From the IMG/VR virus record IMGVR_UViG_3300027668_000089, positions 1 through 25,449 of that record: a DNA stretch of 25,449 nucleotides. One strand, 5' to 3'. Below, piece by piece: positions 3,117-25,449 of the stretch (positions are counted from its first letter, which is position 1; each line of letters opens with the position of its first letter). The stretch is from a virus. A model generated the notes under the pieces. It did not search any database and was not told the origin of the DNA. It saw nothing but the letters and a program-made list of their open reading frames with translations. The position numbers and the translations under genes were made by a program.

Positions 3117-3797
3117 ATGGGAACGTTCGGAGGACCAGATATAGTAACAGACGGATTAGTATTTGCAGTAGATGCAGGTAGCGCAAGAAGTTATCCAGGA
3201 TCAGGAAGTACTTGGTATGATTTAAGCGGTAATGGTTTAGATATGGATATGGTAGGTACGGTAACCTGGAACTCAGCAGGGTATTTTACAGGATGGGCTA
3301 CGGCTAATTATTTTAACTGCTCAACTGGATCGCAGCAATTTTTACCTATCGGTAATCAAGCTAGAACAATAATAACAGTTGTTGAAGTTGGTACGGTAAG
3401 TGGATATCAGCACATAGTTCATTATGGATTAAATACTACAAATCAAGCATATGGACTTGCACTTCTTAACGGAGGACTGTCAGATCATAGATGGGGAACA
3501 AGTAACAATGGTACTGTTGGTGTTTCTGCTTCAAATGGTGTAGTAATGCTTTCAACTAGACATGCAACAAACACTGGTGCGCGCCTTGGAATTGATACAT
3601 CATACGAAGATAGAAGTACAATAATTGGAGCCAATACAAGTAATAGCGGTCAATTCAGAATAGGATCTAGAATATATGATGGAGAAGGTTGGATGTCTAA
3701 TGGTAAAATTTTTAGGGTATTAATTTACAATAGAGTACTAACTGATGCAGAAATTGAACAAAATTACAATGCTTTAAAAAGCAGATTTGGATTATAA
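3117..3797 (+). CDS. LamG/concanavalin-like lectin protein, copy 2
   Basis: This is a 226-residue paralogue of the neighbours at 2199 and 3827. The N-terminus matches both (GPDIVTDGLVFAVDAGSARS), and the end (VLIYNRVLTDAEIEQNYNAL) is the common C-terminal strand and helix of LamG-type domains. The central part differs strongly from the other copies: here it contains WYDLSGNGLDMDM, a pattern often seen in LamG-like proteins, and lacks the FDFDGTDD motif. Conserved ends with variable centres suggest duplication followed by divergence of the ligand-binding face. No signal peptide is seen. It is probably a virion surface lectin or fibre-tip protein; binding specificity cannot be read from sequence. 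Confidence 0.78.
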   Translation: MGTFGGPDIVTDGLVFAVDAGSARSYPGSGSTWYDLSGNGLDMDMVGTVTWNSAGYFTGWATANYFNCSTGSQQFLPIGNQARTIITVVEVGTVSGYQHIVHYGLNTTNQAYGLALLNGGLSDHRWGTSNNGTVGVSASNGVVMLSTRHATNTGARLGIDTSYEDRSTIIGANTSNSGQFRIGSRIYDGEGWMSNGKIFRVLIYNRVLTDAEIEQNYNALKSRFGL

Positions 3798-3826: not shown

Positions 3827-4492
3827 ATGTACACAGGACCACATATAGTAGAAGACGGATTAGTATTTGCAATTGACGCAGGTAGCACTAGATCTTATCC
3901 AGGAAGTGGTACTACAGTAACAAGCTTAGTAGGATCAGCAACGGGTGCATTAAACAACGGTGTTGGGTTCACTAGTGCTTCTGGTGGAGGTTTTACTTTT
4001 GATGGAACTGATGACAATATATCAATTGGCACTTCGCTTTTAAATGTTAATGCGTTTACTGTAGAAGCTATAGTAAATATCACAAGTACTGGTAACACTA
4101 ATAAGACAATATTTTCTTCAGGAAATGCATCTAACTCTGGAATATGGTTGTTAAAGCATAGGTCAGGATTAGGTAATAGTCTTATAATGCACGGGTATGA
4201 TGGTGTTAATCCAAGAATTAATGTTACAGGTGGTGTAGTACCAGATGCTATAAATACATATGTGGCAATAGTATATAACGGGACTTCTTATCAATTATAT
4301 ATGAATGGCGTAACAAGTGGAAATGCTGTGACAGACAATAATATTGCAGCTAGTTCAACTAATCTTATTGCTTCATTAAACAATGGTTCATTTGCACCTG
4401 GAACTATTTACGCATTAAGGGTTTACAATAAAGGGCTTACCGCTACTGAAGTATTACAAAATTATAATGCACAAGAATCAAGATTTTTATAA
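3827..4492 (+). CDS. LamG/concanavalin-like lectin protein, copy 3
   Basis: This is the third tandem paralogue, 221 residues. The start (GPHIVEDGLVFAIDAGSTRS) is very close to copy 2, and the DNA is also visibly similar over roughly the first 80 bases. The domain centre is closer to copy 1, with GNGVGF-like and FTFDGTDDNISIG segments. A YQLYMNGV strand and the ending LRVYNKGLTATEVLQNYNA complete the LamG pattern. A 29-base A/T-rich gap separates it from copy 2, unlike the overlaps upstream. Its mixed resemblance to both neighbours could reflect gene conversion. Likely role: glycan-binding virion protein. Confidence 0.8.
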   Translation: MYTGPHIVEDGLVFAIDAGSTRSYPGSGTTVTSLVGSATGALNNGVGFTSASGGGFTFDGTDDNISIGTSLLNVNAFTVEAIVNITSTGNTNKTIFSSGNASNSGIWLLKHRSGLGNSLIMHGYDGVNPRINVTGGVVPDAINTYVAIVYNGTSYQLYMNGVTSGNAVTDNNIAASSTNLIASLNNGSFAPGTIYALRVYNKGLTATEVLQNYNAQESRFL

Positions 4493-10465: not shown

Positions 10466-12016
10466 ATGTCAGACAAACTTGTCAAAAATCTGAACTTCGG
10501 TAGCGATGCCAAAGCTAAGATATTTAAAGGGATAGATAAACTCACAAAAGCTGTTAGCTCCACATTAGGAGCTAGCGGCAAATGTGTTATCCTTGAAAAT
10601 GAAAATGGTCAACCAGTTATAACCAAAGATGGTGTTACCGTTGCTAATTCAATAGTATTATATGATGCTGTTGAAAACATGGGAGCAACATTAATCAAAG
10701 AAGCCGCTAGAAAGACTGTAGAAGAAGCCGGAGACGGAACAACTACTGCGACAGTACTTGCTAGATCAATTCTAGTAGAAGCGAGCTCTAAAGATATTAA
10801 TTCAAGAGAATTAAAAACAGGAATAAATTCTGCAGTAAAAAAAGTTATTAAACACTTAGAAGAAAATACTATAGAAGTAACAGGCGATATGATTGACCAA
10901 GTTGCTACTATATCTTCTAATAACGATGCTGAATTAGGTAAACTAATCGGTGGCGCTTTTAAAAGTGTAGATAGAACAGGTGTTGTAATGATGGAAGAAT
11001 CAAAAGATATTGAATCTTCTGTTGAAGTTGTTGATGGTATGCAATATGATAAACCAATTAAGAGTTTACATTTCATAACTGATCAAGCAAAAGGTACAGC
11101 AGAACTAGACGATCCTTTAGTTTTAATTGTTGAATCACAGATTGATAGTGTAAGAAAAATACAAGGTATTTTAGAATATGCTATAAAGAATAATGAATCT
11201 TTATTTATTGTTGGAGATGTAGATCCTCAAGTGTTAGCTGCTTTAGCTATGAATAAAATGAAGGGAAATATTAAAACATGTATAGTAGACGCACCAACAT
11301 ATGGGTTTACTAAAAAAGAAAAGCTTAATGACTTGGCTTTAATGACTGGATCTACAGTTATTAACGAAGACTTAGGTGATGATATGGATTTAATAGATAT
11401 TAGCCATTTAGGAAGATGTAAAAAAGTTGTTAGCGGTAAATATGATACTGTTATACAAATTGAAGAAACTCCTGAAGAAGTTAAAGAAATAATTAAAGAT
11501 GTTAAGAAAAAGCTTCAAACTGAGAAGGTAGCAGGATTTGTTATAGCTCACGAAAAAAGACTTGCTCTGTTAGCAGCTAAGGTTGCTATAGTAAAAGTTG
11601 GTGCTAATTCTGAAATTGAATTAAAAGAAAAAAGAGATAGGGTTGAAGACGCTATCTGTGCTACAAAAGCCGCAATCAAAGAAGGTATTGTATCTGGTGG
11701 AGGAATTGCTCTACTAAATGCATCTTCATCTATTAAAGCAGAGTCTGAAGCTGAGCAAGTGCTTCTAGACGCAATTAAAGCTCCTTTTAAGACAATATTA
11801 GATAATGCTGGTATATTAGACTATACAGCACCTAAAATTCAAGGAGAAGGATTAGATGTGGTTACGGGAAATATGGTAAACATGATTGATGATGGTATTA
11901 TAGATCCATTATTAGTTACAAAAAGTGCTCTTTCAAATGCGGCTTCCGTAGCAACTACTATTTTATCAACTGATTGTATAATCAATAATATAAGGATACA
12001 TGAAAGCGATAGGTAG
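10466..12016 (+). CDS. groEL: Phage-encoded GroEL-type chaperonin
   Basis: This 516-residue protein aligns by eye along the whole length of bacterial GroEL. ATP-site motifs are present: ITKDGVTVAN (residues 52-61), GDGTTTATVLA (89-99, with D90 matching the metal-binding Asp87 of E. coli) and RVEDA (D395, matching catalytic Asp398) followed by SGGGIALL near 410. The C-terminal helix NMIDDGIIDPLLVTKSAL is conserved. The Gly-Gly-Met tail is absent; the protein ends RIHESDR. The apical domain is divergent, with several substrate-binding positions changed. Hence it is probably an active folding ATPase with altered substrate range, used for phage proteins such as the capsid or fibres. It overlaps groES by 17 bases, arguing for paired synthesis. 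Phage groEL genes are known from a minority of phages. Confidence 0.93.
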   Translation: MSDKLVKNLNFGSDAKAKIFKGIDKLTKAVSSTLGASGKCVILENENGQPVITKDGVTVANSIVLYDAVENMGATLIKEAARKTVEEAGDGTTTATVLARSILVEASSKDINSRELKTGINSAVKKVIKHLEENTIEVTGDMIDQVATISSNNDAELGKLIGGAFKSVDRTGVVMMEESKDIESSVEVVDGMQYDKPIKSLHFITDQAKGTAELDDPLVLIVESQIDSVRKIQGILEYAIKNNESLFIVGDVDPQVLAALAMNKMKGNIKTCIVDAPTYGFTKKEKLNDLALMTGSTVINEDLGDDMDLIDISHLGRCKKVVSGKYDTVIQIEETPEEVKEIIKDVKKKLQTEKVAGFVIAHEKRLALLAAKVAIVKVGANSEIELKEKRDRVEDAICATKAAIKEGIVSGGGIALLNASSSIKAESEAEQVLLDAIKAPFKTILDNAGILDYTAPKIQGEGLDVVTGNMVNMIDDGIIDPLLVTKSALSNAASVATTILSTDCIINNIRIHESDR

Positions 12017-12260
12017 TAATTTAATAATAAAGAAAATAGAAGAATCAAACCAGTCTACAAAAGGTGGTTTGCTTCTTACAGAAAAACAAAGAGAAGATGT
12101 AAGATTTCAAAAAGCTGAAGTATTTAAAGTAGGCGATTTGGTTGTAGCAGTAAAAGAAAAAGATATTATATACTTTGACAAAGCTGCTTCTCATAGAATA
12201 GAAATAAATAAAGAACCTTATCACGTTATTCGACAAGAAAATGTGGTTATTGTTTTATGA
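12000..12260 (+). CDS. groES: Phage-encoded GroES-type co-chaperonin
   Basis: This 86-residue protein has the GroES order of elements: an N-terminal strand (NLIIKKIEE, residues 7-15), a mobile-loop region with STKGGLLLTEKQ (19-30) matching the GGIVLT loop that docks on GroEL, then AEVFKVGD (39-46) and a C-terminal strand VIRQENVVIVL. It is about ten residues shorter than E. coli GroES (97), with a reduced roof region. The start lies inside the end of groEL, and the stop overlaps the next ATG (ATGA), giving a coupled chain of three genes. It should cap the adjacent phage GroEL; whether it also works with host GroEL is unknown. Confidence 0.88.
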   Translation: MKAIGSNLIIKKIEESNQSTKGGLLLTEKQREDVRFQKAEVFKVGDLVVAVKEKDIIYFDKAASHRIEINKEPYHVIRQENVVIVL

Positions 12261-12703
12261 AAAGGCTAGTAGCAAGAGATGTAAAAGATCTCAATTTGCT
12301 AAAACATTATCGTATAATACGTAAATGGGCTTCAAAAAACAATGATTTAAACGATGCAGATCTTGAATTATTAATTTATTTCGACTGTATGGATCTTTTT
12401 ACTAAGCATGATTTCAAAATGGGTACATATTCTTATAGTTGGGACAATAGGCGCTGGAACAGATTACTTAAAAACGACTGGATAGTCGTGTGGCGAAATA
12501 GAAATAGAACCACTCAAAAGTACAATATCTATAAAGTTTCATTTAAGTGCAAGCAACTTATAAGTAGAATGTATCGAATCATGTTAGGTGAAGAAGATAT
12601 ACCTTCAAGTGAAAGAAGAAATAAACTAATAAAAGGAGATAGTTATACAGACAAAGTACTGACACAAGCTATCTATAACGTAAATAAAGATAAAAATAGA
12701 TAA
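12257..12703 (+). CDS. Possible winged-helix protein
   Basis: This 148-residue basic protein is coupled to groES by a 4-base overlap. Helices around residues 10-55 (LLKHYRIIRKWASKNN, DADLELLIYFDCMDLFT) are followed by SWDNRRWNRLLKNDWIVVWRNRN and a strand pair reading RTTQKYNIYKVSFKCKQLI. This helix-helix-helix-wing order, with a basic wing, suggests a winged-helix DNA-binding fold like MarR-type proteins. It is an inference from pattern, not a recognised family. It could be a transcription regulator or a virion-associated DNA-binding protein. Confidence 0.6.
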   Translation: MKRLVARDVKDLNLLKHYRIIRKWASKNNDLNDADLELLIYFDCMDLFTKHDFKMGTYSYSWDNRRWNRLLKNDWIVVWRNRNRTTQKYNIYKVSFKCKQLISRMYRIMLGEEDIPSSERRNKLIKGDSYTDKVLTQAIYNVNKDKNR

Positions 12704-13083: not shown

Positions 13084-13302
13084 ATGATAGAAGATAAAGC
13101 ACACACTCACGCATCTAAAAATGATAAGATAGGAATAGTTGGTGAATCTCATATATGGGACGGACCATTAGATCAAGCAGGCAGATTACACGGTCAAGGA
13201 TCTAGTAGCGGTCGCTTAGGTATGAAATTAAAACTTGCTGCAACTCCTAATCCAGGAATGGGTATACCTACTGTATGTAGAGCTCAACACCAGTCTAGAT
13301 AG
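13084..13302 (+). CDS. Small hypothetical protein before the M15 peptidase
   Basis: This 72-residue protein is Gly/His-rich, with HTHASKNDKIGIVGESHIWD and a disordered basic end (RLHGQGSSSGRLGMK). It ends one base before the preferred start of the peptidase gene, which supports both being real. No family was recognised. Confidence 0.55.
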   Translation: MIEDKAHTHASKNDKIGIVGESHIWDGPLDQAGRLHGQGSSSGRLGMKLKLAATPNPGMGIPTVCRAQHQSR

Positions 13303-13303
13303 T

Positions 13304-13762
13304 ATGATAAGCAAACATATTAGTTATAATGAAGCAATTCATTCTAACACAGCTAAGAGATGTGGTATAGAAAATATACCCAACGAAGAGCAAACAAATA
13401 ATATGAAAAACTTAGCTGAAAAAATATTTGAACCATTAAGGTTATGGGTTGGTGGGGCAATAAAAATTAATTCATTTTTTAGATCTGAAGAACTAAACAA
13501 AGCATTAGGAGGAGCTTCTAGCTCTCAGCATTGTAAAGGTATGGCAATGGACATTGATGATGTCTATGGCCACAAGACTAATAAAGAAATGTTTGATTGG
13601 ATACGTAGTCACTGTAACTTTGATCAGATCATATGGGAATTTGGTAACGATGATAATCCTTCTTGGATACATGTAAGTTACATAGATGTAAGTAAAAACA
13701 GAAACAGAGTGCTTCTCGCTGAAAAAGAGTTTGGTAAAACTGTTTATAAAATCATAAAATAA
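13304..13762 (+). CDS. Peptidase M15-type peptidoglycan hydrolase, probable endolysin
   Basis: This 152-residue protein carries the metal-site signature of peptidase M15 (D-Ala-D-Ala carboxypeptidase / L-Ala-D-Glu endopeptidase group): SSQHCKGMAMDID (H76, D83 as zinc ligands) and WIHVSY (H123). FFRSEELNKALGG before it matches the usual FRS-LN-A-GG element. E112 in IIWEFG may be the catalytic acid. I chose ATG 13304 over ATG 13235: the extra 23 residues would overlap the gene before it, while 13304 starts one base after its stop and gives the usual MISKHISYNEA-type beginning. No signal peptide, so release would depend on a holin; one lies about 3 kb downstream. It probably cleaves the peptide cross-links of peptidoglycan during lysis; a virion-associated role at entry is possible. 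Confidence 0.85.
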   Translation: MISKHISYNEAIHSNTAKRCGIENIPNEEQTNNMKNLAEKIFEPLRLWVGGAIKINSFFRSEELNKALGGASSSQHCKGMAMDIDDVYGHKTNKEMFDWIRSHCNFDQIIWEFGNDDNPSWIHVSYIDVSKNRNRVLLAEKEFGKTVYKIIK

Positions 13763-16118: not shown

Positions 16119-16454
16119 ATGAAAAACTTATTATTATCTTGCTTAATGTTAATTACATTGAGCGCAACTAGTCAAATTGAAAAAATTCAAGGCATTTGGA
16201 AAAGTGTTGAATCAGAATGTTTAACAAAAATTTCTTACAATAAAGAAAAGTTTAAATTTAAAAACATATGTGATTTTGATATTGATGAAACAGTAGTAAA
16301 CAAAGGTAAAGACTTTGTAACAACAACGTCAATAAATAAAGAAAACAACTATAAAGTAGTTATCAAATATACATTATTAGACAACGGTAATTTAAATGCT
16401 AATTTTGTTGGTGACTTTAAAGGGGTTATAATATATAGAAGATACGATGAGTAA
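16119..16454 (+). CDS. Secreted small protein with Bacteroidota-type signal peptide
   Basis: This 111-residue protein begins MKNLLLSCLMLITLSATSQ: a short basic start, a hydrophobic core and a likely signal peptidase I site near residues 17-18 (SATS-Q), a form frequent in Flavobacteriia. A lipoprotein reading at Cys8 is unlikely because only seven residues precede it. The mature part (about 93 residues) has GIWKSVESE and several beta strands ending GVIIYRRYDE, reminiscent of small lipocalin-like proteins. A secreted protein inside a virion/lysis block may act on the host envelope, for example in lysis or superinfection exclusion. It overlaps the holin gene by 8 bases. The 55-base leader before it (16064-16118) is nearly all A/T with no clear promoter. 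Confidence 0.65.
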   Translation: MKNLLLSCLMLITLSATSQIEKIQGIWKSVESECLTKISYNKEKFKFKNICDFDIDETVVNKGKDFVTTTSINKENNYKVVIKYTLLDNGNLNANFVGDFKGVIIYRRYDE

Positions 16455-16908
16455 AAAATTTAACAAAACTAAAGTTGGAAAGTTTTTAAGTAAAGCAGCG
16501 CCTAGTATATTAGATATAGCGGGTGATGTCTTACCTGACGCTGGCTTGTTTGGTTTAGTTAAAAATCTAATAAAAAAAGATACTGTATTACCTGCAGAAG
16601 ATAAAGAAAAAGCATTGATGTTGTTAGAACAAGATATGATAGAGATGCAAGAAACAACAAAGCGCTGGGAGAGCGATATGAAATCCGATTCATGGCTTTC
16701 TAAAAACACTCGACCAATGTGTTTAATATTTCTATCTGTAATGACTATAGCTTTTATATGGGTTGATAGTCATCATGAAATATCTTTTACAGTAGAACAA
16801 GAGTGGATAGGTTTATTAAAAACTTTAGTAACAACAGTTTATGTAGCCTATTTTGGTTCGCGAGGAGCGGAAAAATTTAAAAGTATAAGTAATAATAATA
16901 ATAAGTAA
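16447..16908 (+). CDS. Holin, 3TM / gene-transfer-agent release type
   Basis: This 153-residue protein has an N-terminal amphipathic or hydrophobic stretch (about residues 18-42, PSILDIAGDVLPDAGLFGLV), a charged helix (LLEQDMIEMQETTKRWESDM), and the sequence DSWLSKNTRPMCLIFLSVMT leading into a first membrane segment (about 91-106). A second follows at about 121-136 (GLLKTLVTTVYVAYFG) and then SRGAEK. The order W-SDM-SDSWLSKNTRP followed by two membrane helices is the pattern of the GTA_holin_3TM family, as I recall it. It should form lesions in the inner membrane that let the M15 hydrolase reach peptidoglycan. The start overlaps the secreted-protein gene by 8 bases. Confidence 0.75.
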   Translation: MSKKFNKTKVGKFLSKAAPSILDIAGDVLPDAGLFGLVKNLIKKDTVLPAEDKEKALMLLEQDMIEMQETTKRWESDMKSDSWLSKNTRPMCLIFLSVMTIAFIWVDSHHEISFTVEQEWIGLLKTLVTTVYVAYFGSRGAEKFKSISNNNNK

Positions 16909-17203: not shown

Positions 17204-17431
17204 ATGAGCTCTGTTATAAGAAAGATAAGTATAGGCTCGGACTATAAAAACGAAGCAATGCATTACTCTGTAGGTCAACCAGTTTACGGTGGACATACTA
17301 TTAGTAGTATATCTTTAGAACAATCTGATAATTCTTATAACATATATATTAAAAAAGAAAACGAAGTTATGCCGTGGAAGAAATTTAATTCTAACATGGC
17401 TATCTCCGTTGAATACGACTTAGAGTATTAA
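17204..17431 (+). CDS. Small hypothetical protein
   Basis: This 75-residue protein starts one base after the previous stop and shares its last base with the next ATG (TAATG). It contains KISIGSDYKNEAMHYSVGQP and VYGGHTISSISLEQSDN, predicted beta. A DYK-(A/G)M-Y-VGQ motif occurs, from memory, in short proteins of marine phages; no role is established there as far as I know. Confidence 0.6.
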   Translation: MSSVIRKISIGSDYKNEAMHYSVGQPVYGGHTISSISLEQSDNSYNIYIKKENEVMPWKKFNSNMAISVEYDLEY

Positions 17432-18036: not shown

Positions 18037-18256
18037 GGAACTTATCAAAGTTGCTAAAGAAGCTATAATAGATACAGCAGAAGATATATCAGCTGACAGA
18101 CTTAAAAACGCTGCAGCAACAAAAAAATTAGCTATATTTGATGCTTTTGAAATACTTAATCGTATTAACGAAGAGCAAGACAAATTAGAAGACAAACCTA
18201 AGGAAGTTAAAAAAGAAGTTGTGTTTCGTGGCTTTGCTGAAGGAAGATCTAAATAA
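17981..18256 (+). CDS. Small helical protein before TerL, candidate small terminase
   Basis: This 91-residue protein is mainly helical and charged, with VEELIKVAKEAIIDTAEDIS followed by DRLKNAAATKKLAIFDAFEI and LNRINEEQDKLEDK. It lies directly before the large terminase and shares one base with its ATG (TAATG). Small terminase subunits are often encoded here, and the size and helical content fit, but I see no clear helix-turn-helix, so this is a positional guess. The start at 17981 lies 56 bases inside the previous gene; no later ATG is available before the conserved-looking helix, so the overlap appears real. Confidence 0.65.
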   Translation: MNTKETKKNIIQAGHIAVEELIKVAKEAIIDTAEDISADRLKNAAATKKLAIFDAFEILNRINEEQDKLEDKPKEVKKEVVFRGFAEGRSK

Positions 18257-20475
18257 TGTACGAACAAACTTTATATAAGGTATTACCCGATCATATTAAA
18301 CCTAAAATTCTTAAACGAATGAACAGGTATAATAAATGGGAGTATGGATACAATGAAGACCACGATATAATTGTAATATCTAGAACTGGTCAAATTGGAG
18401 AAGTATACGAAATACAAAACTTAAAAATAGCTTTACCTAAAGCTAATAATGTTCATAAGTTTGAAGCGAATAAATGGACTCCTTTTGATTACCCTAAAGA
18501 ATTAAAAAGAATAAAAACCGTGTTCGACTGGAGAGAATATCCTGAGGACTTTAAAGAAAAACACTATGACTACATCGATAATGAGTTCGCGCGCCGTGAA
18601 GAAGGCTTTTGGTATATTAACAAAGGCAAGTATACTTATATCACTGGCACTCATTATATGTACTTGCAGTGGTCCAAGATTGATGTTGGGCAACCAGACT
18701 TTCGAGAGGCCAACCGTATATTTTTCATATTCTGGGCCGCAGTATATGCAGACGCTAGGTGTTATGGTATGTGCTATCTCAAGAACAGACGTTCGGGTTT
18801 CTCGTTTATGGCATCAGGGGAGTGTGTTAACATGGCGACCATATCAACCGACGCACGTTTTGGGATTTTGTCCAAATCTGGCGCCGATGCTAAGAAAATG
18901 TTCACGGATAAGGTGGTACCGATATCCGTTAATTACCCATTCTTTTTCAAGCCCATCCAGGACGGAATGGACCGTCCCAAGACCGAGCTGGCCTACAGGG
19001 TCCCAGCCAGTAAGTTTACCAGAAGAAGTATCGTCAAAACCAGTAGTGAAGCCGGCATCGAAACCATCTCGGGTTTGGACACGACCATCGATTGGAAGAA
19101 CACCGGCGATAACGCCTACGATGGGGAGAAACTCAAACTCCTCGTCCACGATGAATCGGGGAAGTGGGAACGCCCGAACAACATCCTCAACAATTGGCGT
19201 GTCACGAAAACCACCCTTCGATTAGGTAGTAGAATTATTGGAAAGTGTATGATGGGATCAACATCAAATGCTTTAGATAAAGGTGGTAGAAACTTTAAAA
19301 AATTATACGATGACTCAAACGTCAACAAAAGAAATGCGAATGGACAAACTCGTTCGGGACTCTATTCTTTGTTCATTCCTATGGAATGGAATTACGAAGG
19401 ATACATCGACGCTTATGGCTTTCCTGTCTTCGACACCCCAAAAGCACCAGTACTCGGACCTCACGGAGTACCTATTAAAATAGGAGTAATAGAATATTGG
19501 GACAATGAAGTAGAAGGTCTTAAGGAAGACTCTGATGGATTAAACGAATTTTACAGACAATTTCCACGCACAACAAAACACGCGTTCAGAGATGAGTCTA
19601 AAATGTCTTTATTTAATCTAAGTAAGATATACGAGCAAATAGATTATAACGAAGATTTAAAACAACAAAGAGTAGTAACTCAAGGTAGTTTTCAATGGGA
19701 GAACGGAATAAGAGATACAAAAGTTATGTTCACACCAAACAAGGATGGTAGGTTTATAATATCTTGGGTTCCACCATTAAATCTACAGAATAGAGTTGTA
19801 AATAAAAATGGTATAAAATATCCAGGTAATGAGCACATGGGTGCTTTTGGTTGTGATAGTTATGATATATCAGGAACAGTAGATGGTAAAGGTTCTAATG
19901 GTTCTTTACATGGTTTAACTAAGTTCAGTATGGAAGACGCTCCTGCTGATCATTTTTTCTTAGAATATATCGCTCGTCCACAAACTGCTGAAATATTTTT
20001 TGAAGATGTTCTTATGGCATGTATATTTTATGGTATGCCAATTTTATGTGAAAATAATAAACCTAGATTACTTTATCATTTTAAACGTAGAGGATATAGA
20101 GGCTTTAGTATGAATAGACCAGATAAAACTTACATGAAGTTATCTGTAACAGAAAGAGAAATAGGTGGAATACCTAATTCAAGTGAAGATATTAAACAAG
20201 CACACGCCGCAGCTATTGAGTCTTATATAGAGACAAGAGTTGGATTTTTAGGAGATATGTATGGAGATATGTATTTTCAAAGAACATTAGAAGACTGGGC
20301 TGTATTTGATATAAACAATAGAACTAAACATGATGCAACAATTAGTTCAGGTCTTGCTGTAATGGCTTGTAACAAGAATAGGTATGCACCAGTTAATAAA
20401 TTAATAATAAAACCTATTGATCTTGGAATTAAAAGATATAATAATAAAGGTGAATTATCAAAAATAATTAAGTAA
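18256..20475 (+). CDS. terL: Terminase large subunit (DNA-packaging ATPase and nuclease)
   Basis: This 739-residue protein packages DNA into the head through the portal. ATPase domain: a deviant Walker A region KNRRSGFS (176-183), without the usual Lys before Ser/Thr, and Walker B LKLLVHDE (293-300, D299 and catalytic E300), followed by a GKCMMGSTSN coupling motif (329-338). Nuclease domain: FGCDSYDISG (531-540, D534) and PILCENNKPRLL (595-606, E599), typical acidic metal ligands of terminase nucleases. The N-terminal 110 residues form an extra domain. The gene is unusually long for TerL but the size fits large terminases of some Bacteroidota phages. Bases 18661-19220, covering the ATPase core, are markedly more G/C-rich than the rest. 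It is directly followed by the portal gene with no gap. Confidence 0.9.
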   Translation: MYEQTLYKVLPDHIKPKILKRMNRYNKWEYGYNEDHDIIVISRTGQIGEVYEIQNLKIALPKANNVHKFEANKWTPFDYPKELKRIKTVFDWREYPEDFKEKHYDYIDNEFARREEGFWYINKGKYTYITGTHYMYLQWSKIDVGQPDFREANRIFFIFWAAVYADARCYGMCYLKNRRSGFSFMASGECVNMATISTDARFGILSKSGADAKKMFTDKVVPISVNYPFFFKPIQDGMDRPKTELAYRVPASKFTRRSIVKTSSEAGIETISGLDTTIDWKNTGDNAYDGEKLKLLVHDESGKWERPNNILNNWRVTKTTLRLGSRIIGKCMMGSTSNALDKGGRNFKKLYDDSNVNKRNANGQTRSGLYSLFIPMEWNYEGYIDAYGFPVFDTPKAPVLGPHGVPIKIGVIEYWDNEVEGLKEDSDGLNEFYRQFPRTTKHAFRDESKMSLFNLSKIYEQIDYNEDLKQQRVVTQGSFQWENGIRDTKVMFTPNKDGRFIISWVPPLNLQNRVVNKNGIKYPGNEHMGAFGCDSYDISGTVDGKGSNGSLHGLTKFSMEDAPADHFFLEYIARPQTAEIFFEDVLMACIFYGMPILCENNKPRLLYHFKRRGYRGFSMNRPDKTYMKLSVTEREIGGIPNSSEDIKQAHAAAIESYIETRVGFLGDMYGDMYFQRTLEDWAVFDINNRTKHDATISSGLAVMACNKNRYAPVNKLIIKPIDLGIKRYNNKGELSKIIK
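18661..19220 (+). other. GC-rich composition island inside terL
   Basis: By hand count, 18961-19200 has 129 G/C in 240 bases (54%), while 19261-19320 has 17 of 60 (28%) and 20041-20100 has 13 of 60 (22%). Codons change too: CGT/CGC/CGA Arg, TCG Ser, and C-ending codons become common where neighbours use AGA and A/T-ending codons. The downstream edge near 19220 is sharp; the upstream edge is gradual, between about 18580 and 18780. The reading frame is intact. A smaller G/C-richer patch follows at about 19320-19480. Confidence 0.8.
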
Positions 20476-24065: not shown

Positions 24066-25449
24066 ATGGGAGTATTAAGTCCTCAATTTGGTAGTTTATT
24101 ACCTTCACAAGCACAACAACTTTTGACGAATAACTACCTACAATTTAACACTGGAGGTGCAAATGATTTTGCTCAACAGTATCTACCTGAAGTCTATGAG
24201 GCTGAAGTAGAAAGATATGGAAACAGAACTATTTCTGGTTTCTTAAGAATGGTTGGCGCTGAAATGCCAATGACATCTGATCAAGTAATTTGGTCGGAAC
24301 AAAATAGATTACACATTGCATATGATAACGTAGCTGTGAATGCTGCTGGTGACTTTACTGTTCCTGCTGGAGCTGTAAACGTTGTTTTTCAAAACATGAC
24401 TATTGTAGTTATGGATCCTGCAAATCCTGCTGGAACTGTAAAAGCAATTGTTACTGATTCAACTACTAACGCTGGTTATGGCGGTGCTGGTGGAACATCA
24501 TTTACTGCTGTTGCTTATACACAAGCAAACATTAATCCTGGTGCTGCTGGTGCAGCTCTTGCTGGATTAAAAGTATTTGTATATGGTTCAGAATATGCTA
24601 AAGGAACTGTTGGACCTCTTAATGAGTCTATCACTCCTTCTTTCACACAATTTTCTAACTCACCAATCATATTAAAATCTAGATATGCTATATCTGGTTC
24701 TGATACTGCACAAATCGGTTGGGTTGAAGTTGCTGCTGAAGATGGAACATCTGGTTACCTATGGTATTTAAAAGCTGAAGGTGAAACTAGATTACGTTTC
24801 GAAGATTACTTAGAAATGAGTATGATTGAAGGTGAGCTTACTACAGCTGCATCTGGAGCTAGAGCTGCTGTTCTTCCAGGATTTACTGGAGCTGCAGGTA
24901 TCTTTGTGAAAGGTACACAAGGTCTATTCTCTGCAATTAACACAAGAGGTAATATCTTATCTGGCTATGCTGGATCATTACAAGATTTTGACTCTGTATT
25001 AGAGAATTTAGATACTCAAGGAGCTATTGAAGAAAACATGCTTTTCTTAGATAGAAAAACTGAGTTATTATTTGATAATATGTTAGCACAACAAAACTCT
25101 TACGGAGCTGGAGGTACATCTTACGGTGTATTTGAAAACTCTGAAGAAATGGCGTTGAACTTAGGATTTTCTGGATTCAGAAGAGGTTCTTATGACTTCT
25201 ACAAGACTTCATGGAAATACTTGAACGATGCTTCTACAAGAGGTGGTTCTGGTAACTTTGTTAATGGTGACAATATCGATGGTGTATTAATTCCAGCTGG
25301 AACTTCTACAGTATACGATCAATTACTAGGAACAAACATCAGACGTCCTTTCTTACACGTAAGATATAGAGCTTCACAAGCAGATGATAGAAGAATGAAA
25401 TCATGGTTAACAGGTTCTGTTGGCGGTGCTGCAACTTCTACTTTAGATG
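24066..25449 (+). CDS. Major capsid protein, 3' end outside window
   Basis: An open frame runs from ATG 24066 to the window end, giving 461 residues without a stop. It begins MGVLSPQFGSLLPSQAQQLL, then NDFAQQYLPEVYEAEVERYG and RTISGFLRMVGAEMPMTSDQ, a start I associate with HK97-fold capsid proteins of crAss-like and related phages. Later parts include FRRGSYDFYKTSWKYLNDAS and RRPFLHVRYRASQ. Ala/Gly-rich composition and a comparatively uniform codon choice fit a highly expressed virion protein. It follows the scaffold-like gene after 18 A/T-rich bases with no Shine-Dalgarno box. It should form the head shell and is a likely client of the phage GroEL. The C-terminus is not visible. Confidence 0.85.
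   Translation, partial: MGVLSPQFGSLLPSQAQQLLTNNYLQFNTGGANDFAQQYLPEVYEAEVERYGNRTISGFLRMVGAEMPMTSDQVIWSEQNRLHIAYDNVAVNAAGDFTVPAGAVNVVFQNMTIVVMDPANPAGTVKAIVTDSTTNAGYGGAGGTSFTAVAYTQANINPGAAGAALAGLKVFVYGSEYAKGTVGPLNESITPSFTQFSNSPIILKSRYAISGSDTAQIGWVEVAAEDGTSGYLWYLKAEGETRLRFEDYLEMSMIEGELTTAASGARAAVLPGFTGAAGIFVKGTQGLFSAINTRGNILSGYAGSLQDFDSVLENLDTQGAIEENMLFLDRKTELLFDNMLAQQNSYGAGGTSYGVFENSEEMALNLGFSGFRRGSYDFYKTSWKYLNDASTRGGSGNFVNGDNIDGVLIPAGTSTVYDQLLGTNIRRPFLHVRYRASQADDRRMKSWLTGSVGGAATSTLD

Follow-up and report, generated by a model that had tools for sequence, protein, structure and literature searches.

A phage-encoded GroEL with a conserved, altered apical groove, shortened inter-ring segments and its own lid

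GroEL was discovered via phage capsid assembly, and how far chaperonins can specialise for given clients or lids is still argued. IMG/VR virus record IMGVR_UViG_3300027668_000089 (positions 1 to 25,449; this whole stretch of 25,449 nucleotides is called the window here) carries a groEL gene of its own. A preliminary description of this DNA reported that several hydrophobic residues of the substrate-binding groove are changed and suggested that the protein is an ATPase specialised for phage clients. What, then, is the altered groove for: phage clients, a phage lid, or both? Phage-encoded GroEL and GroES are already known, and virioplankton chaperonins were reportedly the subject of a paper by Marine et al. 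in 2017; the family described here is a new variation on them.

Identity and lineage of the phage GroEL

The groEL open reading frame begins with the ATG at 10466, its stop codon ends at 12016 and it encodes 516 aa, as the preliminary description had it (Table 1). The protein matched Pfam Cpn60_TCP1 (PF00118; 179.6 bits, cut-off 34.3) and PHROG 5725 GroEL (E = 3.8e-128), and it passed the NCBIfam subfamily NF000592 (458 vs a cut-off of 397). It stayed below the cut-off of the GroEL equivalog TIGR02348 (450.9 vs 582.1 bits), so it does not classify with the ordinary bacterial GroELs. A structural comparison, which had been proposed earlier, revealed the three-domain fold of GroEL: the AlphaFold2 model (29 sequences in the alignment; mean pLDDT 85.7) matched solved GroEL chains (4ki8) with Z 41.6, rmsd 3.5 and 38% identity over 506 aligned residues. 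A scan of IMG/VR found 227 relatives, and the best 80 of the 227, 64-97% identical, were retained; with the window protein they make up a family of 81 sequences. Residues are numbered according to E. coli K-12 GroEL from NC_000913. The ATP site of the phage GroEL is intact, as previously claimed, with D52, D87 and D398 present in 81/81 family members and the TLG and GDGTTT motifs visible in the alignment. Since a groES gene lies beside groEL, a complete chaperonin/co-chaperonin pair is encoded and the term ATPase is too narrow. Because the score lies below the equivalog cut-off, and ring contacts and part of the hydrophobic groove are lost (see below), we call the window protein a divergent phage group I chaperonin, which probably works like GroEL/GroES or mtHsp60/Hsp10.

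Table 1. Chaperonin features and other genes of the window considered in this analysis
Feature	Position	Strand	Evidence
Phage GroEL, group I chaperonin large subunit, 516 aa	10466..12016	+	PF00118, PHROG 5725, NF000592, model vs GroEL
Client- and lid-binding groove, apical domain (window residues 198-263 = E. coli 199-265; underlying segment, helices H and I)	11057..11254	+	alignment to E. coli GroEL
Equatorial stretch, about E. coli 426-478, shortened; E434, S463, V464 missing	11726..11851 (approximate)	+	segment lengths
groES/Cpn10 lid, 86 aa, mobile loop TKGGLLLTE, without roof hairpin	12000..12260	+	PF00166, PHROG 3188, relatives' alignment, fold match
Third gene of apparent operon, 148 aa, PHROG 17028	12257..12703	+	homologue in 80/80 relatives
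Second GroES-like protein, 201 aa	17431..18036	+	PHROG 13932, HHalign
Terminase large subunit	18256..20475	+	PHROG 6681, E = 5.2e-159
Virion structural (probable major capsid) protein, runs past window end; candidate client	24066..25449	+	PHROG 13704, head and packaging, E = 6e-81

Phylogenetic analysis grouped the family in a single clade (SH-aLRT 100), separate from Bacteroidota and the other bacteria sampled; its stem is 1.3 to 1.8 changes per site long. The best identity to a bacterial GroEL was ~42% among the matches listed. A joint clade with Bacteroidota was not rejected (AU p = 0.64). Kinship with EL/OBP-type chaperonins, which the preliminary description had raised, was not seen: 6tmt ('putative GroEL-like chaperonine') scored 104 bits vs 334-364 bits for group I GroELs. 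The chaperonins of phages EL, OBP and AR9 are phage-encoded like that of the window, and ring separation or a single ring has been reported for them. The phi-EL protein is described as a remote homologue in evolutionary terms, with no interaction with E. coli GroES (PMC7185714); unlike it, the window protein belongs to group I and has an adjoining GroES gene.

The gene lies ~6-10 kb upstream of terL in relatives, groES accompanies groEL in all 19 terL loci that show the latter, and the order groEL-groES-orf148-...-terL-portal is conserved. In two loci (L231 and L233) groEL is not within 10 kb of terL but further upstream. The presence of both genes throughout these terminase neighbourhoods shows that the chaperonin pair is a lineage trait. 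The nearest named phage by terminase is MW202828 (63%), followed by Flavobacterium phage elemo and Cellulophaga phages, and this kinship makes a Bacteroidota host likely. Homologues of the capsid candidate are likewise found in elemo, Cellulophaga phages, Panino and MW202828. The best reading of the lineage is that of widespread aquatic podophage-like tailed phages in which the chaperonin was inherited vertically.

Elemo, Cellulophaga phi38:1, Maribacter Panino and MW202828, mostly Bacteroidota podophages, resemble the window phage in having groEL and a double-length GroES-like gene by terL. A separate Cpn10 gene is shared by elemo, phi38:1 and MW202828, and the shortened inter-ring segment by phi38:1 and Panino. 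However, their GroELs are only 36-40% identical to that of the window and their grooves differ (YIFEVLAM in Panino, YRFALLVE in phi38:1, YGFLVMYA in elemo). Position 234 is E in Panino and MW202828, K in Vibrio phage YC and A in phi38:1. An IMG/VR scan with the Panino GroEL found no relatives. In MW202828 (locus L083, 8943-10571) GroEL is ~36% identical although the terminase is 63% identical, and the gene sits in a similar place and in the same order with groES; either this GroEL evolves much faster than the terminase or it was replaced.

Elsewhere in the window, three similar, closely spaced ORFs of ~220 aa (2199-2870, 3117-3797 and 3827-4492, all on the + strand) are possibly duplicated receptor-binding or decoration genes; a LamG-like lectin profile scored above its cut-off for the first and below it for the second. 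Lysis genes encode an M15 peptidase endolysin (13235-13762, +) and a holin-like protein (16447-16908, +). Promoter and terminator scans gave nothing exceeding shuffles, and a tRNA scan found none.

The apical groove

Compared with E. coli GroEL, the window protein carries Y199I, Y203H, L234Q, V263A and V264M, whereas F204, L237 and L259 are unchanged. YGFTKKEK stands where E. coli has GFGDRRK, and the GGM tail is absent. All of these differences had been read by eye in the preliminary description, and the alignment bore them out. Of the classical hydrophobic groove (Y199, Y203, F204, L234, L237, L259, V263, V264), five residues are thus replaced, two of them by polar ones (Q234, H203). The changes are common to the family: Q234, A263, M264, L237, E238, I241, N265 and K268 are each present in 81/81 members, H203 and F204 each in 80/81, and position 199 is L, I or V in 81/81. 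Position 261 is A in 74/81, and the motif [LIV]HFQL[LMI]AM occurs in 79/81. For comparison we used 70 bacterial GroELs from many phyla, those nearest the window protein among the matches listed. At the same eight groove positions these have overwhelmingly Y, Y, F, L, L, L, V and V; Q234, A263 and M264 occur in none of the 70, and H203 in one. Position 241, I in all family members, is A or V in most bacteria.

The apical domain is the most diverged part of the phage GroEL. Window-to-bacteria identity is 33% there vs 48% in the N-terminal equatorial part, and the corresponding values for bacteria vs E. coli GroEL are 68% and 74%. The gene is under purifying selection (dN/dS of 0.05-0.24 between the window and relatives), and Q234, A263 and M264 never change among 28 representatives (<90% identity) while 143/184 apical positions vary. 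This fixed motif together with low dN/dS indicates that the groove was altered and then held; it is not drift. Hydrophobic groove residues remain at L237, F204, L259, I241, M264 and M267. These residues leave most of the groove hydrophobic; Q234 and H203 are the two polar replacements. GroELs at two more distant loci (L253 and L254, 57-58% identical) have N203, Q234, V263 and M264, an intermediate groove. This suggests that Q234 and M264 arose before H203 and A263.

Both clients and lid use this surface in GroEL. The IVL tripeptide of GroES is contacted by L234, L237 and V264, and an alanine mutant of N265 loses GroES binding (PMC3514286). Non-native Rubisco is contacted by Y203 and V264 (PMC10723157). 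The groove change therefore touches a dual-function surface, and sequence alone does not separate client binding from lid binding.

Lids and ring-to-ring contacts

The preliminary description had passed over the overlapping groES, the short inter-ring segments, the groove changes at 241 and 261 and the GroES-like gene at 17431. The groES ORF starts at 12000 and overlaps groEL by 17 bp, an overlap present in the 12 family loci measured, and a groES homologue lies directly downstream of groEL in 80/80 relatives (best 80 of 227). The 86-aa product matched PF00166 (41.3 bits, cut-off 21.1) and PHROG 3188, and fell under every NCBIfam GroES cut-off. Its model, of moderate confidence (pLDDT 73), matched Cpn10 structures including T4 gp31, and dN/dS of the gene is 0.09-0.24. 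The mobile-loop tripeptide of the phage GroES is L-[LIF]-[LI] (GGLLLTE in the window) vs mainly III, ILL or IVL in bacteria; the loop is hydrophobic. The phage GroES is predicted to work with the phage GroEL. In the alignment of relatives, the roof hairpin of the E. coli GroES dome is missing from every family GroES. T4 gp31 likewise carries a mobile loop but is devoid of roof loops, and it is required for folding the capsid protein gp23 (PMC6318259). However, gp31 uses host GroEL, whereas the window phage supplies its own ring, and the mobile loop of its lid is not lengthened. The 148-aa gene downstream overlaps the end of groES by 4 bp and may belong to the chaperonin module.

Besides groES, the window encodes a second GroES-like protein of 201 aa, the most unusual part of the system and also the least certain. 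It matched PHROG 13932 'co-chaperonin GroES' (E = 1.3e-19). In HHalign, its C-terminal half matched bacterial GroES with a probability of 96%; its N-terminal half gave a weak match of 26%, which nevertheless exceeded all 100 column shuffles. Among the column-shuffle controls of the C half, a few scored >130, and one that was inspected had 7 aligned columns, an apparent edge artefact of the program. The N half of the elemo homologue matches PHROG 3188 GroES at 3e-4. When the family profile was compared with PDB sequences, no GroES was among the matches, so the GroES fold of this protein rests on PHROG, HMM and HHalign. Its N-terminal half is possibly a second Cpn10-like domain, which would make it a tandem Cpn10. 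The double-length gene, just upstream of terL, is also found in elemo, phi38:1, Calle, Panino and MW202828, and the homologues in the first four are annotated as GroES or Cpn10. Among terL relatives with enough upstream sequence it is present in 67/67, including all 19 terL loci showing groEL.

The contacts between rings are changed as well. The segment carrying E461, S463 and V464 is 11-13 aa long in 81/81 family members vs 14-18 aa in the 70 bacteria (17 or 18 in 67/70). None of the 28 representatives compared with bacteria has positions 463 and 464. E434 is missing too, and positions 105, 109, 452 and 461 vary freely in the family. The classical double-ring contacts (K105-E434/D435, R452-E461, S463, V464) are thus absent or variable. 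In the single-ring GroEL-SR, R452, E461, S463 and V464 are mutated; mtHsp60 is without the K105-D435 and E461-R452 bridges; and GroEL-SR becomes functional when GroES binding is weakened (PMC5575113). Since the inter-ring segments are shortened in 81/81 members, a single-ring state is predicted, and the phage GroEL probably cycles as a single ring like mitochondrial Hsp60. The oligomeric state is not readable from a monomer model, and we infer the single ring from the contact positions.

Comparison with known systems places the phage pair as follows. It shares with bacterial GroEL/GroES the fold, domain order, ATP-site residues, N265 and a hydrophobic lid mobile loop. It differs in GroEL identity (~38-42%), in the groove (Q234/A263/M264/H203), in the short inter-ring segments, in the absence of the GGM tail, in the roofless lid and in gene order, which is groEL then groES, whereas groES comes first in E. 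coli. Like the phage protein, mtHsp60/Hsp10 and GroEL-SR are without inter-ring contact residues and are altered at two lid contacts, L234 and V264; these are V and L in mHsp60 but Q and M in the phage, and the single ring of the phage is a prediction.

How the chaperonin may work

The reading that we prefer, with a probability of roughly 0.6, is that the groove belongs to a vertically inherited phage chaperonin and lid, probably a single ring, whose rim is tuned to its own lid and adapted to phage proteins. Unfolded protein would bind the apical groove of the phage GroEL, ATP and GroES would drive it off the groove and into the chamber, and hydrolysis would be followed by release of the lid. 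The shortened equatorial segments lack residues that hold two rings together, which would give a single-ring cycle. L234Q, V263A, V264M, Y203H and Y199L/I/V sit on the surface common to client and lid, where they could tune the affinity for the cognate GroES, a weaker contact letting the lid leave a single ring. A further effect of these substitutions may be a rim better suited to phage proteins, the capsid protein among them. Changes in residues that touch the lid agree with the case of GroEL-SR, in which a single ring needs weaker lid contact; by this analogy, missing ring contacts and lid-contact substitutions would be linked. In this picture the gene pair, the conserved groove, the intact ATP site, the absent inter-ring residues and roof, the purifying selection and the synteny are observed, and a single-ring state, a weakened lid affinity and phage clients are predicted. 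Much of the groove's hydrophobicity is retained, so the client range may be ordinary.

Did the groove instead change mainly for one or a few phage proteins, such as capsid or fibre, with the lid secondary? Y203 and Y199 lie in the underlying client-binding segment, outside the three listed GroES contacts, and non-native Rubisco is touched by Y203 and V264 (PMC10723157). Positions 203, 234, 263 and 264 are variable in several other phage GroELs too, but not in bacteria. However, L234 and V264 are GroES contacts (PMC3514286), I241 and M264 keep the groove hydrophobic, and the sequence names no client. The 1407-aa fibre would be too large for a normal chamber; the capsid protein is a candidate client by analogy with T4. 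Because L234 and V264 bind the lid loop, the phage has its own GroES and the groove is largely hydrophobic, lid tuning accounts for the findings no less well, and we regard a change driven mainly by clients as possible but on the unlikely side. Of the earlier claim of specialisation for phage clients, what stands is a remodelled, conserved groove in a phage gene; clients as its cause do not follow, since L234 and V264 bind the lid and the groove stays largely hydrophobic.

The phage GroEL might also be used mainly with the 201-aa protein, or with mixed lids, as chloroplasts use Cpn10 and tandem Cpn20 (PMC5780408). The 201-aa protein might be the true partner, or both might be lids. The constant presence of its gene and its Cpn10-like C half speak for this. 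Its N half, however, is weakly supported as a Cpn10 domain, the C half has no clear hydrophobic mobile loop, and the gene lies in the packaging module apart from groEL, where it may encode a virion or packaging protein on a GroES fold; we find this partnership quite unlikely. An unlikely, though bolder, extension of the preferred reading is a natural single-ring group I chaperonin with two phage lids, a roofless Cpn10 and a packaging-module tandem Cpn20-like protein, the rim being re-tuned so that an enlarged chamber, serving the capsid protein, is closed by these and not by host lids.

An ordinary promiscuous phage GroEL that boosts folding capacity, its groove changes nearly neutral and fixed by descent, would agree with the canonical fold, with the retention of F204, L237, L259 and N265, with the precedent of other phage GroELs and GroESs and with the stepwise changes seen in the two 57-58% relatives. 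Near-neutral changes, however, would not be expected to leave Q234, A263 and M264 invariant among so many varying apical positions, and this reading is highly doubtful. That the gene was captured from a host recently, or is a copy in decay, is hardly credible. Homology alone speaks for it, and an old origin from Bacteroidota groEL is not rejected (AU p = 0.64). Identity, however, is at most ~42% among the matches listed, the clade is separate with a long stem, the frames are intact and dN/dS is well below 1; recent capture is rejected.

The main correction to the preliminary description is that three features, an altered groove, a lid without a roof and absent ring contacts, co-occur and should be studied as one machine. 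The family is a natural experiment, in which groove and ring-contact residues that are near-invariant in bacteria were replaced and then frozen in many phages alongside a lid gene. With these phages one can ask experimentally if lid contact must be weaker in a natural single ring, and if clients are selected by phage chaperonins. In summary, the same rim and ring-contact changes in 81/81 members point to a phage-tuned, possibly single-ring folding machine.
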